DNA of 42,125 nucleotides from an uncultured Caryophanales bacterium. Lineage in GTDB: Bacteria > Bacillota_I > Bacilli_A > RF39 > UBA660. The stretch is from the NCBI GenBank assembly GCA_947168965.1, contig CAMVNW010000007.1, positions 1-42,125 of the forward strand, in the 5' to 3' direction. This document shows, one piece after another, positions 1 to 8,677 of the stretch. A model generated the notes under the pieces. That model worked only from the letters and a program-made list of their open reading frames with translations, did not search any database and was not told the origin of the DNA. The translations under genes were made by a program, and so were the position numbers. The stretch's first letter is position 1; every line of letters starts with the position of its first letter.

Positions 1-137
1 CCATCATAAAAAACAAAATTCTTACATCCTTCTCTATTATCAATAGTCTTCTTTAAAATATTAACATTTTTCCAATCGTTTAATATTTCACTTTCAACCT
101 CATTTATACTCTTTTTACTTAACTCTTTAAATTCCAT
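1..137 (-). CDS. ileS: Isoleucyl-tRNA synthetase, N-terminal fragment (runs off the left edge)
   Basis: Only the first 45 codons are in the window. The ATG at 137 follows a strong AGGAGG (143-148) by 5 bases. The peptide starts MEFKELSKKSINEVE and continues with a W-x5-I stretch and FVFYDG at the edge, the start of the IleRS signature FVFYDGPPxANG that leads into the class I Rossmann fold. IleRS charges tRNA-Ile with isoleucine in the cytoplasm. The upstream leader is a T-box with an Ile (AUC) specifier, and the divIVA-ileS order is common in Firmicutes; both support the call. An ion exchanger gene lies between that T-box and this start, and its stop overlaps the ileS ribosome binding site. 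Confidence 0.88.
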   Translation of the reverse strand, partial: MEFKELSKKSINEVESEILNDWKNVNILKKTIDNREGCKNFVFYD

Positions 138-147
138 AAATATCCTC

Positions 148-1098
148 CTAACCAAATATTACATATGAATAATAAATAACAAATAATACTAACATAATTA
201 TTCCCTCATGCCTATGAATCTCATGATCCTTATAAGCAAAAATAAATAATAATATCGCACTAACAATCATTGCAATCAAATCGATAACATTGAAACCAAC
301 TGCTTGAATACCTCCAAATAACGCAACAGGAACACCTAATACAACACCTATATTAAATATATTACTTCCAACAATATTACCAACTAAAATCTCATGTTCA
401 CCCTTTCGAGTAGAAACAATACTAGTAACAAGTTCAGGTAAAGAAGTACCGAAAGCAACAACAGTTAAAGCAATCATCTTTTGACTTACACCCAACATAC
501 CAGCAATCTTAGAAGCACTATCAACAACAACATTCGAACCCATTACAATACAAACAATACCTAAAATAGTAAAAATAATAGATTTAAACATTCCATACTT
601 AGCCATTTCATCCGCATCATTATCCTTTTTGTTTCTCATAATAGATATTAAATAATAAACAAATACCATAAAAAACAAAACTATAACAAAACCATCATTA
701 CGATTAATAGTATTTATACTACTAACAAATAAATCATCCTTAATCAAAAAGAATAGTAAAGTACTAAATAACATTACAATAGGTAACTCTTTCCTAACAG
801 TATTACTTTTAACTTTAATAGGCTTAATAATAGCACAAATACCAACAATAAGTAAAATATTTAAAATATTACTACCAATAACATTACCCAAAACCATATC
901 TGAATTATTAGAAATAATAGACTTAACAGATACAGCAAATTCAGGAGCACTTGTACCAAAAGCAACAATAGTTAAACCAATTAACATCTTAGATAACTTG
1001 CAATTTAAAGCAATACTACTTGCTCCATCAACAAAAACATCTGCTCCCTTTATTAAAACAATAAAACCAATAATTAATAATATAATTTGTATAAACAC
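148..1098 (-). CDS. Na+/Ca2+ exchanger (CaCA) family membrane antiporter, YrbG-like
   Basis: This is an integral membrane cation antiporter of about 316 residues, the usual length for bacterial CaCA proteins, with around ten hydrophobic segments. The two inverted alpha repeats are clear: AFGTSAPE (residues 46-53) followed by GNVIGSNILN, and AFGTSLPE (215-222) followed by GNIVGSNIFN. These carry the ion-binding acidic and polar residues. The frame is open to a TTG at 1113, but the GGAGGTG at 1105-1111 sits 7 bases before the GTG at 1098, so GTG at 1098 is the better start. The gene is the first one behind the Ile T-box, and its TAG overlaps the ileS ribosome binding site, so it should be co-transcribed with ileS. 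The transported ion cannot be told from sequence. Confidence 0.9.
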   Translation of the reverse strand: MFIQIILLIIGFIVLIKGADVFVDGASSIALNCKLSKMLIGLTIVAFGTSAPEFAVSVKSIISNNSDMVLGNVIGSNILNILLIVGICAIIKPIKVKSNTVRKELPIVMLFSTLLFFLIKDDLFVSSINTINRNDGFVIVLFFMVFVYYLISIMRNKKDNDADEMAKYGMFKSIIFTILGIVCIVMGSNVVVDSASKIAGMLGVSQKMIALTVVAFGTSLPELVTSIVSTRKGEHEILVGNIVGSNIFNIGVVLGVPVALFGGIQAVGFNVIDLIAMIVSAILLFIFAYKDHEIHRHEGIIMLVLFVIYYSYVIFG

Positions 1099-1111
1099 AA
1101 ATTCCACCTCC

Positions 1112-1305
1112 AAAAAAAAATTCTATAAATTTAAGGACGAGATTACCCGTGGTACCACCTTAATTCATAGAATCTATGCACTTATTTACTATAACGCGTA
1201 ACCGTTTTAACCTATTGGATTAAAAACATCAAGAGTGATACATATATTACCTTCATATTAGTTTCCACCAAACACTAACTCTCTATAAATCAAATAATAT
1301 AACGT
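1112..1305 (-). promoter_or_regulatory. T-box leader, isoleucine (AUC) specifier
   Basis: The minus strand carries a full T-box: an AGAGAGTTAGTG...TTGGTGGAAACTAA stem I apical part (about 1262-1285), a specifier ATC at 1239-1237 followed by A and CTCTTGATG, and the T-box bulge sequence AAGGTGGTACCACGGG (1146-1161). The terminator pairs CCTTAAATTTATAGAAT with ATTCTATGAATTAAGG (stem arms 1121-1136 and 1158-1173) and ends in a T run at 1112-1120. I placed the specifier by alignment with the glyQS stem I (codon, then A, then the closing strand). Uncharged tRNA-Ile should stabilise the antiterminator and allow transcription of the exchanger and ileS. Confidence 0.92.
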
Positions 1306-1309
1306 CTCT

Positions 1310-1339
1310 ATCATATGTTTTAAATATCAATTTTATCAA
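1310..1339 (-). promoter_or_regulatory. Promoter for the Ile T-box transcript
   Basis: TTGATA (1339-1334) and TATGAT (1315-1310) are separated by 18 bases on the minus strand. The -35 box lies inside the last codons of divIVA. The predicted start is at the first bases of T-box stem I. Confidence 0.55.
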
Positions 1340-1787
1340 TATCATCAATGATTTCTAATTGACACTCAATTAAACTTCTTACCTTATTTTTATAAACCAC
1401 AACATCTTTTTTTAACTTATCAGATTCTAAATTAACCTTTTCAGCACGAATCAAAGCATCATTCAAAATTCTACTAGCGTTATTTTTCGCATCCGCAATA
1501 ATAACCTCACGTTCCTTTAAAGCATTATTTCTTATTTGCTCACCAGTACTCTTAATCATATTCATAGAATTATTTAAAGTTGCTTCTATTTGCCTATAAT
1601 AATTAATTTGATTTTTTAAATTTAAATTTTCCTGTTGTAGTCGTTTAACCTCCAAATCGAAATTATAAAGTTGTCTGTCTTTAAGACTATTATCACTTTC
1701 AATTTGAGAAAGTCTAGTCATAACCTCACCTAAATACTTCATAACATCATTTGAATTATCACTACGAAGTGTATTAAAATTTTCCAT
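1320..1787 (-). CDS. divIVA: DivIVA-like coiled-coil protein with a reduced N-terminus
   Basis: This 155-residue, highly charged protein has heptad-rich segments (about 20-65 and 70-150). The C-terminal half matches DivIVA: YRQIEATLNNSM, then a GEQIRNNALKEREVII helix, an AKNNASRILNDAL helix and KVRSLIECQLEIID. DivIVA proteins organise polar growth or division-site machinery at curved membrane. The canonical N-terminal membrane-binding domain, with its Phe-Arg loop in a segment like EFxxxxRGYD, is not visible; the protein starts directly with a short helix (MENFNTLRSD). The ATG is preceded by AGGTGAT, so truncation by a wrong start is unlikely. The gene lies downstream of sepF and upstream of the ileS leader, the usual division-cluster neighbourhood. 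A GpsB-like or other DivIVA-family role is possible. Confidence 0.75.
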   Translation of the reverse strand: MENFNTLRSDNSNDVMKYLGEVMTRLSQIESDNSLKDRQLYNFDLEVKRLQQENLNLKNQINYYRQIEATLNNSMNMIKSTGEQIRNNALKEREVIIADAKNNASRILNDALIRAEKVNLESDKLKKDVVVYKNKVRSLIECQLEIIDDIDKIDI

Positions 1788-1862: not shown

Positions 1863-2279
1863 TTACCACTCAATATTTATATCATCATTGTCATGTATAT
1901 CTTTTCCATCTTTTTCATCCGATATACTACCTTGGATATTTACATTGTTAGGAGTAAGTAAAAATATACCTCCACCTACTTTTTGAATATCTCCACCAAT
2001 CGCATAAATTGTACCACTTAAAAAGTCAACAATACGCTTAGCTTGATCGCTAGTAACTCTCTTTAAATTAACAACAACAGTATTTCTAGCCTTTAAGTGA
2101 TCAACAATTTGTTGAGACTCAGAATATGCTCTTGGCTCTAATAAAATCATCTTACTCTTTCCATTATCAACAGTAGCAGCCTCTTCTGGTGATTTATTAT
2201 AATAAGTATCATTACTTCCGTCAGTTGCGAATATATCCCCTTCATCTTCTTTTAACCATTTCTTTAAACTAAATGCCAT
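1863..2279 (-). CDS. sepF: Cell division protein SepF
   Basis: This 138-residue protein binds FtsZ and membrane and supports septum assembly in Firmicutes. The N-terminus [12 protein letters not shown] can form the amphipathic membrane helix. A linker follows, and then the SepF core (about 42-118): [37 protein letters not shown] and GGGIFLLTP, all family hallmarks. The acidic tail (119-138) is low complexity. AGGGAGG precedes the ATG by a few bases. It sits just upstream of divIVA, but the genes usually between them (ylmG, ylmH) are absent. A -10-like TAAAAT lies upstream at about 2312-2317 (minus strand). Confidence 0.93.
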
Positions 2280-3810: not shown

Positions 3811-3836
3811 AAAAAAAGAAGAATATACATTCTTCT
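3811..3836 (-). terminator. Terminator of the gatCAB-asnS operon
   Basis: On the minus strand AGAAGAAT-GTAT-ATTCTTCT begins within the asnS stop codon and is followed by six or more T. It separates the operon from the tRNA genes, which therefore probably have their own promoter in 3680-3810. Confidence 0.88.
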
Positions 3837-5211
3837 AAAAATCACAATTGCCTGGAGTTCTAGGAAATAGAATAACATCTCTGATATTCTCAATACCAGT
3901 TAAATACATAATAAGTCTTTCAAAACCTAAACCAAATCCAGAATGATAGCATCCACCATATCTTCTTAAATTATTATACCAATAAACAGTATCTTGATCT
4001 ACACCCATAGCGTTCATTCTAGAAACCAACTTATCATAATCTTCTTCTCTTTGAGAACCACCAATTAATTCTCCGATACCAGGAACCTCTAAATCAACAG
4101 CCGCAACTGTTCTTTCATCACTATTTAATTTCATATACCAAGCCTTAATATCCTTTGGCCAATCAGTAATAAATACAGGGCCATTGAAATACTCAGTAAT
4201 ATATCTCTCATGTTCTTTAGCTATATCATCATCATAACTAGGTTCAAACTCCCATTTAACTTTAGCCTCTTTTAATATATCGACAGCCTCATGATGAGTA
4301 ATTCTCTTAAAATCAGAACTTACTAATTTTTCTAGCTTATCCTTAAGTCCCTTAGAAACAAATTTATCGAAAAATTCTATTTCATCGCCACAATTCTTAA
4401 GAATATAATTAACAATATACTTAAGCATATCCTCTTCAATATCCATTAAACCATTTAAATCACAAAAAGCAATCTCAGGTTCAATCATCCAGAACTCATT
4501 CGCATGAGTCTTAGTATTAGAATTCTCAGTTCTAAAAGTAGGTCCAAAAGTATAAATCTTCTTAAAAGCCATTGCCATAGCCTCACCATGCAACTGACCT
4601 GTACCAGTAATATAAGCCTGTTTTTTAAATAAATCTTGACTCATATCAACACTACCATCAACCATTGGTAAATTATTAAAATCAAGTGTAGTAACCTTAA
4701 ACATTTGGTTCTCACCTTCACAATCAGCAGTAGTGATTAAAGGTGTATGAGCATAAACATATCCATGACTTTGAAAATAAGAATGAATTGCATTTGCGGC
4801 CATACTTCTTACTCTAAAAACTGCTTGAAAAGTATTAGTTCTACCACGTAAATAAGCTTGTTCTCTTAAAAATTCCATAGAATGTCTTTTTGGTTGAATT
4901 GGATAATCCTCTGGACAATCTCCTTCTAACTTAAAAGACTTCATAACTACTTCATAATCTTGACCAGCACCAACTGACTCTTTTAAAATACCTTGAACAC
5001 TAATAGCTGATCCAACATGTAACTTTTGAATTTCATCAAAATTACTTAAACTATTATCATAGACAATTTGAATATGTTTAAAAACTGTTCCATCAGAAAA
5101 ATCTATAAAACCAAATTCTTTTTGTTTTCTATGATTTCTAATCCAACCAGATAAACTAACCTCTTTACCAACATATTCCTTTATATTTAAAAACAATTCC
5201 TTTAAATCCAT
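3835..5211 (-). CDS. asnS: Asparaginyl-tRNA synthetase
   Basis: This 458-residue class II synthetase attaches Asn to tRNA-Asn. The N-terminal OB-fold (about 1-105) contains VSLSGWIRNHRKQKEFGFI. The catalytic core has motif 2 (TFRTENSNTKTHANEFWMIEPE) and motif 3 near the end (GFGLGFERLIMYLTGIENIRD). The YHSGFGLGFERL and RFPRTP-like FPRTPG ending are typical of AsnRS rather than AspRS. AGAGG precedes the ATG, and the gatB stop is only 3 bases upstream, so translation is probably coupled. Presence of AsnRS suggests the adjacent GatCAB serves mainly Gln-tRNA-Gln, although the operon is under Asn control. Confidence 0.96.
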   Translation of the reverse strand: MDLKELFLNIKEYVGKEVSLSGWIRNHRKQKEFGFIDFSDGTVFKHIQIVYDNSLSNFDEIQKLHVGSAISVQGILKESVGAGQDYEVVMKSFKLEGDCPEDYPIQPKRHSMEFLREQAYLRGRTNTFQAVFRVRSMAANAIHSYFQSHGYVYAHTPLITTADCEGENQMFKVTTLDFNNLPMVDGSVDMSQDLFKKQAYITGTGQLHGEAMAMAFKKIYTFGPTFRTENSNTKTHANEFWMIEPEIAFCDLNGLMDIEEDMLKYIVNYILKNCGDEIEFFDKFVSKGLKDKLEKLVSSDFKRITHHEAVDILKEAKVKWEFEPSYDDDIAKEHERYITEYFNGPVFITDWPKDIKAWYMKLNSDERTVAAVDLEVPGIGELIGGSQREEDYDKLVSRMNAMGVDQDTVYWYNNLRRYGGCYHSGFGLGFERLIMYLTGIENIRDVILFPRTPGNCDF

Positions 5212-5214
5212 AAT

Positions 5215-6669
5215 TTACCTCTTTTCTATCTCCTCTATCATCATACTTCGAGTAATACCAGGATTAGCTTGACCACGAGTCTTTTTCATAACTTGACCAA
5301 CTAAATAATCAACAACATTAGTTCTTCCAGCCTTATACTTTTCTATATTATCACTATTTTCATCTAATACTTCAGTAACAATCTTTAATATTTCGTCTGC
5401 TGAACCTATTTGTTTCATACCAGATTCCTCTACTACAGTTTTAGGATCCTTATTTTCCTCTAAACACTTAAATAAAACTTCCTTACCCTGTTTACTAGAA
5501 ATAGTACCATCTTGAACCATATCAATTAATTCCTTTAACATTGAAGGAGTTACATAAATATCATCAATAGATAATAACTCTTTATTTAAATAACCAAGAA
5601 TTACACTACTAATCCAATTAGAAGCAAGTTTAGGATCTGCTCCACACTTAATAGTATCCTCATAATAATCAGAAACATTCTTATCCTTAACCAAAATAGT
5701 CGCATCATAATTAGATAATCCATAATTATTCATATAAATTTCTTTTCTCTCATGAGCTAAAACTGGAATAGAATCCTTAATCTCATTAATCCAATCATCA
5801 CTTAACTTAATCTTAGGAATATTAGGATCAATAAAATACTTATAATCAATTGCGTTAACCTTATCACGCATATATATAGTAGTCATAGTATCCTCATCCC
5901 AACGTCTAGTTTGTTGAGGCATACTATCATACTCTCCAGACTCTTTTAACTTAATCTGTCTATCAATCTCATAATCAATAACAGCCTTAGCAGCACCAAA
6001 TGAATTAACACCCTTAACTTCTACCTTAGTACCATAATTTTCAGGAATTTCCTCTAAATCAGCATCCATAATAGATACATTAACGTCACATCTAATTTGA
6101 CCCTTCTTACTATCAGCCTCACTAATATCCGCATATCTATAAATACTTCTGATAGTCTCCAAGAAAGCTAAAGCTTCATCACTACTATGAAAACAAGGTT
6201 CAGTAACCAACTCTAAAAGTGGAACACCACATCTATTATAATCCAAAGTAGAAAATGAAGGAAAATGTTGTTGACTAGCAGTATCCTCTTCAAGATGGAT
6301 ATTATTGATTATTGCTTCATGAAATTCACCATTACAGTCATATCTTAACTTACCAAAACAACCGATAGGAGCAGGTTTAGTTTCTTGAGTAATCTGATAT
6401 CCTTTAGGTAAATCAGGATAATAATAGTTTTTTCTTTCAAAATACAAATACTCTGGGACCTTACAACCTAACATTAAACTCATCATTATAGACTTACGAA
6501 CAGCCTCTTTATTAACAACAGGAAGAGTTCCAGGGAAACCCATATCAAGAGGTCTTACATTACCATTAGGACAATCATTAAAACTATTAGAAGCACTAGA
6601 AAAAACTTTAGAATTAGTTTTACTAATTTCACAGTGCATCTCAATACCAATTAAAGCCTTATACTTCAT
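5215..6669 (-). CDS. gatB: Asp/Glu-tRNA amidotransferase subunit B
   Basis: This 484-residue protein is the tRNA-binding kinase/transamidase subunit, which phosphorylates mischarged Glu-tRNA-Gln (or Asp-tRNA-Asn) and amidates it with ammonia from GatA. Family motifs are clear: IGIEMHCEI near the N-terminus, FERKNYYYPDLPKGYQITQ, HLEEDTAS, DYNRCGVPLLELVTEP, QIRCDVNVS and RRWDEDTMTT. The C-terminal YqeY-like tail ends TRGQANPGITRSMM. The ATG overlaps the gatA 3' end by 11 bases. Length is normal. Confidence 0.96.
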   Translation of the reverse strand: MKYKALIGIEMHCEISKTNSKVFSSASNSFNDCPNGNVRPLDMGFPGTLPVVNKEAVRKSIMMSLMLGCKVPEYLYFERKNYYYPDLPKGYQITQETKPAPIGCFGKLRYDCNGEFHEAIINNIHLEEDTASQQHFPSFSTLDYNRCGVPLLELVTEPCFHSSDEALAFLETIRSIYRYADISEADSKKGQIRCDVNVSIMDADLEEIPENYGTKVEVKGVNSFGAAKAVIDYEIDRQIKLKESGEYDSMPQQTRRWDEDTMTTIYMRDKVNAIDYKYFIDPNIPKIKLSDDWINEIKDSIPVLAHERKEIYMNNYGLSNYDATILVKDKNVSDYYEDTIKCGADPKLASNWISSVILGYLNKELLSIDDIYVTPSMLKELIDMVQDGTISSKQGKEVLFKCLEENKDPKTVVEESGMKQIGSADEILKIVTEVLDENSDNIEKYKAGRTNVVDYLVGQVMKKTRGQANPGITRSMMIEEIEKR

Positions 6670-8125
6670 AATCGTACCCCCTTGCTATTTGATTTTTATA
6701 ATCCATGCTACCTTCTAATGCATAAGCAATATTTAAAACATTAACATCATCATAACAATTTCCAGTTATATTAACCCCAACAGGTAATCCATTAACAAAT
6801 CCATTTGGAATAGTAATAGAAGGAAAACCACCAAAATTTCCAATTTGTAAATGTTCCTCTAATGGTTCAATATTAGAAATCTTACTATTCTTAGAATCAT
6901 CTAAATGTTTTGCAGGACCTGATCCAACAGGTAAAATAACCGCATCATATTTTTCAAATAACTTTTTCCACTCATCAACAATTAATCTTCTAGCCCTTTG
7001 AGCGTTAAAGAAATATCTATCCTTATTTTCAGCTTGCAAAACATAAGAACCAATAACAAACCTTCTCTTAATCAAAGAACAAAAACCACGGGTTCTATAA
7101 TTCTTCATCATATCATGATAATTATTACCTTCACTACGAGGACCAAAACTAATACCAGTTAAATTAGACATATTGCTAGTAGCCTCAGCACAACTAATAA
7201 CAACATAAACAGAACCAACAGCGTTTAATAACTTTTGATCAATACTAACCTCTTCTACTTCTATACCAAGACTTTTACACTTATCTAAAGTATCAAAAAA
7301 ATTACTTAAATGTTTTCTTAACTCATCTGTCGCATCAGGATAATTATTAATATCACATAACTCTTTTACATAACATAACTTTTTACCCTTAACATTACCA
7401 TCAATAGAATCAAATAAATGAACACGACTAGAATCCCAGCTAGTCATATCATTAGAATCAATTCCCTTCATACCATCAACTACAATTGCTGCGTCACGAA
7501 CACTTCGAGTCAAAACTCCACAAGTATCTAAACTAGAAGCAAAAGGAAACAAACCATAACGAGAAATCATTCCGTATGTAGGCTTATAACCTACAATACC
7601 ACAATAAGCAGCAGGCTTACGAATAGAGTCTCCAGTATCAGATCCTAAAGCATAAGGATATACTCCAGCTGCTACTGCACAAGCACTACCCGCACTAGAT
7701 CCAGCACACATACGTGTCTTATCCCAAGGATTTCTTACAACACCAGTATGACCTGTAGTACCAGTACCACCCATACCAAACTCATCAAGAACAGTCTTAT
7801 TAACTGGAACTGCTCCTAACTTTTCCAAATTACTAACAGCAGTAGCGTTAAAAAATGGAACATAATCCTTTAATGTATTACTACTACCAGTGGAAAGAAT
7901 TCCCTTAGTACTATAATTATCCTTAATACCATATGGAATACCAGATAATAAATTATCATTAACACTAACACCCTTAGCGTCATCCATAATAGTAACAAAA
8001 GCGTTGCACTCATCTTGTAACTTATGACTTCTTTCTAAACTCTCATTAACCAAATCAGAAGAACTAACATTACCACTTACTAAATCACTATGTAATTCTT
8101 CAATAGACTTTAAACTATTCTTCAT
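6659..8125 (-). CDS. gatA: Asp/Glu-tRNA amidotransferase subunit A
   Basis: This 488-residue amidase-signature protein hydrolyses Gln to supply ammonia to GatB. The Ser-Ser-Lys triad is present: Lys in GIPYGIKDNY, the cis-Ser in MCAGSSAGSA and the nucleophile Ser in GSDTGDSIRKPAA. The loops differ from the textbook Bacillus form (SDTGGSIRQPA, PGGSSGGSA): here SDTGDSIRKP and DEFGMGGTGTTGHTG, which match the Mycoplasma-type GatA that I recall. This is a lineage hint and not a sign of inactivity. The start ATG overlaps gatC by 11 bases. Confidence 0.95.
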   Translation of the reverse strand: MKNSLKSIEELHSDLVSGNVSSSDLVNESLERSHKLQDECNAFVTIMDDAKGVSVNDNLLSGIPYGIKDNYSTKGILSTGSSNTLKDYVPFFNATAVSNLEKLGAVPVNKTVLDEFGMGGTGTTGHTGVVRNPWDKTRMCAGSSAGSACAVAAGVYPYALGSDTGDSIRKPAAYCGIVGYKPTYGMISRYGLFPFASSLDTCGVLTRSVRDAAIVVDGMKGIDSNDMTSWDSSRVHLFDSIDGNVKGKKLCYVKELCDINNYPDATDELRKHLSNFFDTLDKCKSLGIEVEEVSIDQKLLNAVGSVYVVISCAEATSNMSNLTGISFGPRSEGNNYHDMMKNYRTRGFCSLIKRRFVIGSYVLQAENKDRYFFNAQRARRLIVDEWKKLFEKYDAVILPVGSGPAKHLDDSKNSKISNIEPLEEHLQIGNFGGFPSITIPNGFVNGLPVGVNITGNCYDDVNVLNIAYALEGSMDYKNQIARGYDYEV

Positions 8126-8437: not shown

Positions 8438-8671
8438 AAAAAAACAGTAATCACATCCCTAAAAAAGGGACGAACTACTGTTAGAATCCGCGGTACCACC
8501 CTAGTTACACTAAGTCACTCAAAGATGATAACGGAATCATTCCGACCTATTCTACTAAACTTCGATAAGTAACTCCATGGTGTTATTCATGCTTAACATA
8601 TTACTAGTATCCCACCATCACTAGCTCTCTATAAACTGTTTTAAACACTACTTCTCCACTTCAAAGTCATT
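8438..8671 (-). promoter_or_regulatory. T-box leader, asparagine (AAC) specifier
   Basis: The minus strand has stem I with AGAGAGCTAGTGATGGTGG (about 8611-8629), a specifier AAC at 8584-8582 followed by A and CCATGG, and the highly conserved bulge CTAGGGTGGTACCGCGGATTC (8484-8504). The terminator pairs AACAGTAGT and TCCCT with AGGGA and ATTACTGTT (8445-8482), followed by seven T. The specifier matches the last gene of the operon, asnS, so uncharged tRNA-Asn should induce gatCAB-asnS. This leader fills the 316-bp gap between gatC and the next gene. Confidence 0.94.
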
Positions 8672-8677
8672 TAGACA

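Follow-up and report, generated by a model that had tools for sequence, protein, structure and literature searches.

We propose that a T-box leader RNA of isoleucine type, a gene for a CaCA-family (YrbG-type) Na+/Ca2+ exchanger and ileS, which stand in this order at the start of the window (the whole 42,125-nucleotide stretch analyzed), probably belong to a single transcript under T-box control, the exchanger gene being one that has repeatedly come to occupy a slot permissive to insertions. On the minus strand, the T-box (1130–1323) is followed by the exchanger gene (148–1098) and then by ileS, which begins at 137 and runs off the contig edge, with 10 nt (138–147) between the exchanger stop and the ileS ATG. 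The original prediction had described an AUC-specifier T-box, a CaCA exchanger and ileS 10 nt behind it, and this description was confirmed by matches to RF00230, TIGR00367 and PF01699 and by an overlapping contig of the same genome. It had outlined the locus as positions 148–1305, a span that takes in the exchanger together with most of the T-box, whereas the whole unit occupies 1–1323 of the minus strand.

Anatomy of the leader and the two genes

The leader (1130–1323, minus strand) matched the Rfam T-box model RF00230 with 103 bits (gathering score 93, E = 8.4 × 10−22) and the family model R1 with 203.5 bits, the latter score not being independent, as R1 was built from nine T-boxes that include the window's leader. 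Its specifier codon, read from the sequence at 1237–1239 (minus strand), is AUC (Ile), which pairs with the anticodon of the tRNA-Ile(GAU) in the genome and agrees with the amino acid of the downstream ileS; the same codon was invariant in all nine aligned family T-boxes, and the specifier originally predicted thus stands. The conserved antiterminator T-box sequence GGUGGUACC (1151–1159, minus strand), also invariant in nine aligned T-boxes, contains UGGU, which complements the A-CCA end of the genome's tRNA-Ile(GAU) (3′ end ...GGUCC-A-CCA), the variable base of UGGN matching the discriminator. For the antiterminator region, an alternative fold into a long terminator hairpin is predicted, with arms at 1158–1172 and 1121–1136 read from the sequence, followed by nine U (1112–1120). 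This intrinsic terminator (1112–1172, minus strand) lies upstream of the exchanger ribosome binding site GGAGGUGG (1104–1111, minus strand), which comes directly after the U-tract. The whole leader folded no better than shuffled sequence (z = 0.53), and promoter-like sites in the region, 23 against a shuffled mean of 18.0 (sd 4.2), were not clearly in excess of chance.

The exchanger gene (148–1098, minus strand; 316 aa) likely starts at the GTG at 1098, a few bases past GGAGGTGG, and not at the TTG at 1113 given in the ORF list. Its product scored well above the cut-offs of TIGR00367 (248.4 bits vs 179.65) and PF01699 (218.9 vs 24.9) and is homologous to NCX_Mj over its full length (5jdf, E = 2.6 × 10−38). 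At the NCX_Mj cation-site positions E54, N81, E213 and D240, which we take to be the four cation ligands of that protein, all 33 in-slot copies keep the first three residues and have Asn at the fourth, and 40 other CaCA copies carry the same residues with one exception at N81. Judged by these residues, the protein looks like an ordinary cation exchanger. A comparison between the window's genome and a congener (G002) gave dN 0.10 and dS 0.80 for the exchanger, which is therefore under purifying selection. Among 37 CaCA relatives found elsewhere in family genomes, four lie immediately behind a Ca2+-type P-type ATPase gene, although only one of the four ATPases (L256) exceeds a curated calcium-pump cut-off, the other three being cut by the ends of their stretches and scoring below theirs; this proximity points to cation handling.

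The window holds only the first 45 codons of ileS (1–137, minus strand), which score weakly against IleRS models. The identity of the gene is secure because another contig of the genome, C58, shares an exact 55-bp overlap with the beginning of the window and continues the reading frame; this continuation scores 931.5 bits against TIGR00392 (cut-off 621.4). Upstream of the T-box, on the same strand, are a DivIVA-domain gene (1320–1787, minus strand; PF05103) and sepF (1863–2279, minus strand; PF04472), the genes among which ileS usually lies in Bacillota. In B. subtilis, the neighbors of ileS include divIVA and ylyA (PMC5282499).

Three further observations concern synthetases and T-boxes beyond this unit. 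The window's genome encodes a second full-length IleRS on contig C36 (L012, L010), 1039 aa long and 36% identical to the first, behind its own T-box with a specifier read as AUC. Since 17 other genomes of the same genus or family yielded no enzyme of this kind (15 had the first kind alone, at 33–35% identity, and two had no match at that threshold), the second IleRS is either rare or on a foreign contig. The signature motif HXGH is replaced by GXHH in all 140 family ileS starts that were inspected (L079–L218); GXHH in IleRS2 has been tied to mupirocin hyper-resistance (PMC10485003), and natural insensitivity to this antibiotic is therefore predicted for the family. Within the window, a second T-box (8463–8673, minus strand; 130 bits) has the codon AAC in the specifier place when read by eye, and the genes behind it (3835–8125, minus strand) look like gatA, gatB and asnS; it would appear to be an Asn-type leader over an operon for an amidotransferase and AsnRS.

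Recurrence and history of the arrangement

We searched the ileS product against 193 genomes of the same family, of which 182 had a match, and took 140 ileS-upstream regions among the matches listed, leaving out the window's own row, gene starts that were missing or at a contig edge, and rows G101, G146 and G197. In these 140 regions (among the matches listed), a CaCA gene lay between T-box and ileS in 27, counting one (L204) whose T-box would be off the contig, and the T-box stood directly before ileS in 92; the remainder had another gene or a long spacer (18) or no T-box that was found (3). The class of 18 compares with 17 regions first labeled as having another gene, of which the family tree includes 8; the difference is L198, whose 167-nt spacer contains no gene. 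The covariance model R1 matched 136 of the 140 regions; the four without a match were L111, L156, L197 and L204, of which L156 and L204 lie at contig ends. With the window, G002, G170, G114 and G142 added to the 27 regions, the order T-box–CaCA–ileS was found in 32 genomes of 24 genera; it thus occurs in related genomes, where the original prediction had suggested looking for it. An assembly artefact was rejected, as the same order appears in many separate assemblies.

The details of the unit recur along with its order. The distance from the CaCA stop to the ileS start was at most 20 nt in 26 of 27 regions, ranging from −4 to 20 nt with four 4-nt overlaps, and the single exception (L130 in G057) had a gap of 124 nt; spacing this tight suggests that translation of the two genes may be coupled. 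The motif AUC-A[CU] was present at the specifier position in 23/23 in-slot leaders that could be placed, meaning that their antiterminator motif could be located, and in 114/116 of all placed leaders, compared with 271/2320 in shuffles.

CaCA genes are by far the commonest occupants of the slot between terminator and ileS, accounting for 27 of 43 to 45 filled slots, a range that reflects two spacers of doubtful status. Other slots contain genes for a GNAT acetyltransferase, CYTH-domain proteins, DUF362-ferredoxin proteins, DUF3800 and an EF-Tu fragment, as well as unnamed small genes; the CYTH assignments in L141, L154 and L155 and the DUF362 assignment in L164 were made by eye from their resemblance to the scanned L092 and L140. 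In two regions, L185 (G199) and L190 (G108), genes that by eye resemble those for transposases lie on the opposite strand between the T-box and ileS, even though ileS is essential. A pair of genomes from one genus, G003 and G164 (L081 and L080), 97–98% identical here, differ by one GNAT gene; where the slot is filled, this gene takes up precisely the space from the U-tract of the terminator to the ribosome site of ileS, and in the empty slot it is missing. Single genes can therefore enter or leave the slot cleanly. The exchangers themselves are of more than one lineage: in G068 and G200 the slot is filled by a divergent CaCA, 39–40% identical to a main-type copy located elsewhere in the same genome, and G148 has two CaCAs in tandem that are 64% identical. 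The predominance of CaCA genes, together with the entry of several of their lineages, goes beyond what would be expected of blind insertion.

To follow the trait, a family tree was built from sepF, divIVA and ileS starts, using the 66 of 140 regions that had all three markers (L197, in which no T-box was found, carried the label for a T-box directly before ileS). The CaCA label required 13 changes on this tree, at least 7 of them being forced by well-supported branches, and shuffled labels required 15.9 on average, with 19 of 500 shuffles as low as 13; the in-slot trait is thus barely more clustered than shuffled labels. On a tree of 73 CaCA sequences, the slot label changed 10 times, with at least 5 changes forced. 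Even a single genus (g53) includes both states, G188 with a CaCA-filled slot and G055 with no gene between T-box and ileS. Distances between exchangers correlated with distances between their loci (r = 0.42 over 17 in-slot loci, a set that excludes the window, the two divergent copies (L193 and L204) and any row lacking one of the three markers; 0 of 2000 permutations as high), indicating that co-inheritance of exchanger and locus is only moderate. The pattern may reflect many losses or many gains.

In two further genomes, G114 (L247) and G142 (L250), the order sepF–divIVA–T-box–CaCA is followed by an ileS of another type, canonical IleRS1 (TIGR00392, 845 bits in L247). Here the synthetase type was swapped in place, and leader and exchanger were kept together.

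Explanations for the position of the exchanger

In the reading that we favor, T-box, exchanger and ileS would constitute one transcription unit. Uncharged tRNA-Ile would bind the leader by AUC–GAU and UGGU–ACCA pairing, the antiterminator would form, and the transcript would run on through the exchanger into ileS; with charged tRNA-Ile, as known T-box behavior leads us to infer, the terminator before the exchanger would halt both genes. The gap between the terminator and the ileS ribosome site appears to accept single genes readily in this family, and its commonest occupant, the CaCA gene, would have been passed on by descent in some lineages, while others lost it, acquired it or had it replaced. 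On this account, the exchanger would owe its T-box control to its position and not to a T-box of its own, and indeed a T-box upstream was found at 0/37 of the CaCA genes elsewhere in family genomes, which argues that position gives the control. The only T-box in those 37 stretches (L272) lies downstream of the CaCA gene, before an asnS-like gene. The original proposal that the exchanger is made co-ordinately with IleRS is well supported by the anatomy of the locus and its conservation, with the terminator before the exchanger and 26 of 27 gaps at or below 20 nt. An unlikely alternative is that ileS or the exchanger has a promoter of its own, the T-box controlling only part of the unit. Within the exchanger gene, the minus strand does contain some promoter-like sites, though shuffled sequence has nearly as many; the terminator, however, stands before the exchanger, and the short gaps to ileS, G057 excepted, also speak against such a division.

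The earlier alternatives for how the exchanger came to be there were an accident of insertion or a real link between ion balance and isoleucine supply. A single accidental insertion was rejected and can be taken as excluded, given that the order recurs across 32 genomes of 24 genera and that well-supported branches force the trait to have changed at least 7 times; a real link is possible, though unproven, in view of the CaCA genes elsewhere that lack a T-box and of the unrelated genes that the slot accepts. Such a link could have arisen by selection, if making the exchanger when Ile-tRNA is uncharged benefits the cell, so that the isoleucine T-box operon retained CaCA genes or attracted them; we regard this as conceivable but rather doubtful. 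It would fit with CaCA being the commonest occupant, with the divergent copies that took the slot in G068 and G200 despite a main-type gene elsewhere, with the tandem pair in G148, and with CaCA and T-box staying together in G114 and G142 although their ileS is a canonical IleRS1. It fits less well with the weak clustering of the trait on the family tree, with the occupation of the same slot by unrelated genes, with the 0/37 count, and with the CaCA loci of sampled genomes outside the family, of which 0/33 adjoined ileS or a strict T-box motif within flanks of 1.5–5 kb. The two carrier families tested lend no support to the specific link suggested at the outset, in which amino acids are taken up by Na+-coupled carriers, as BrnQ/LIVCS (PF05525) and NSS (PF00209) were each detected in 0/193 family genomes and in 4 and 6, respectively, of 14 control genomes; the coupling needs such a carrier, and their absence therefore weakens the proposal of Na+-driven isoleucine uptake and counts against selected co-regulation. 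Slightly more doubtful still is the fuller claim that selection placed an inorganic-cation exchanger under isoleucyl-tRNA control and that Na+/Ca2+ balance shifts when charged tRNA-Ile is short. If the exchanger's place were selected, it would tie ion balance directly to tRNA charging at the genetic level. That the exchanger is a repurposed isoleucine transporter, comparable to the NhaC-family proteins under Tyr T-boxes that are taken as amino acid carriers, seems very improbable. A T-box before a transporter gene often reports the amino acid carried, as indicated in the accessible text of Wels et al. 2008 (PMC2494555), but the residues at the cation site in all 33 in-slot copies and the four relatives behind Ca2+-type ATPase genes point the other way, and we rejected this candidate, its ion ligands being intact.

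Comparison with known T-box systems

T-box control of ileS is standard, and the locus is an ordinary isoleucine T-box operon whose first gene is an ion exchanger, recurrent in one family. We recognized no description of a T-box-controlled CaCA gene in the open-licence literature. T-box-controlled transporters of seven families (MFS, APC, NSS, DAACS, LIVCS, NhaC and ABC) are named in the accessible text of Wels et al. 2008 (PMC2494555), and like the window's exchanger they are membrane transporters under a T-box; the seven do not include CaCA and are taken as amino acid carriers, whereas the window's protein looks like a cation exchanger. Should selection have placed the exchanger here, CaCA would be an eighth T-box transporter family beside the seven in that text, and its substrates would be inorganic ions. 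Genes behind a T-box are commonly given an amino acid role on the strength of that leader, and the space between T-box and synthetase has here been filled repeatedly by genes without an evident amino acid role; such assignments can therefore mislead.

Compared with NCX_Mj and other YrbG-type CaCA exchangers, the window's protein shares full-length homology and has kept cation-site residues, and it differs in having Asn for Asp at 240 and in being encoded inside a tRNA synthetase operon. The closest parallel for the operon itself is the T-box-controlled ileS of Bacillota such as S. aureus and B. subtilis, where a leader of the same RNA family and of isoleucine type precedes ileS behind divIVA. 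The window departs from that plan in having a CaCA gene between leader and ileS, while 92 of the 140 family regions (among the matches listed) follow it without one.
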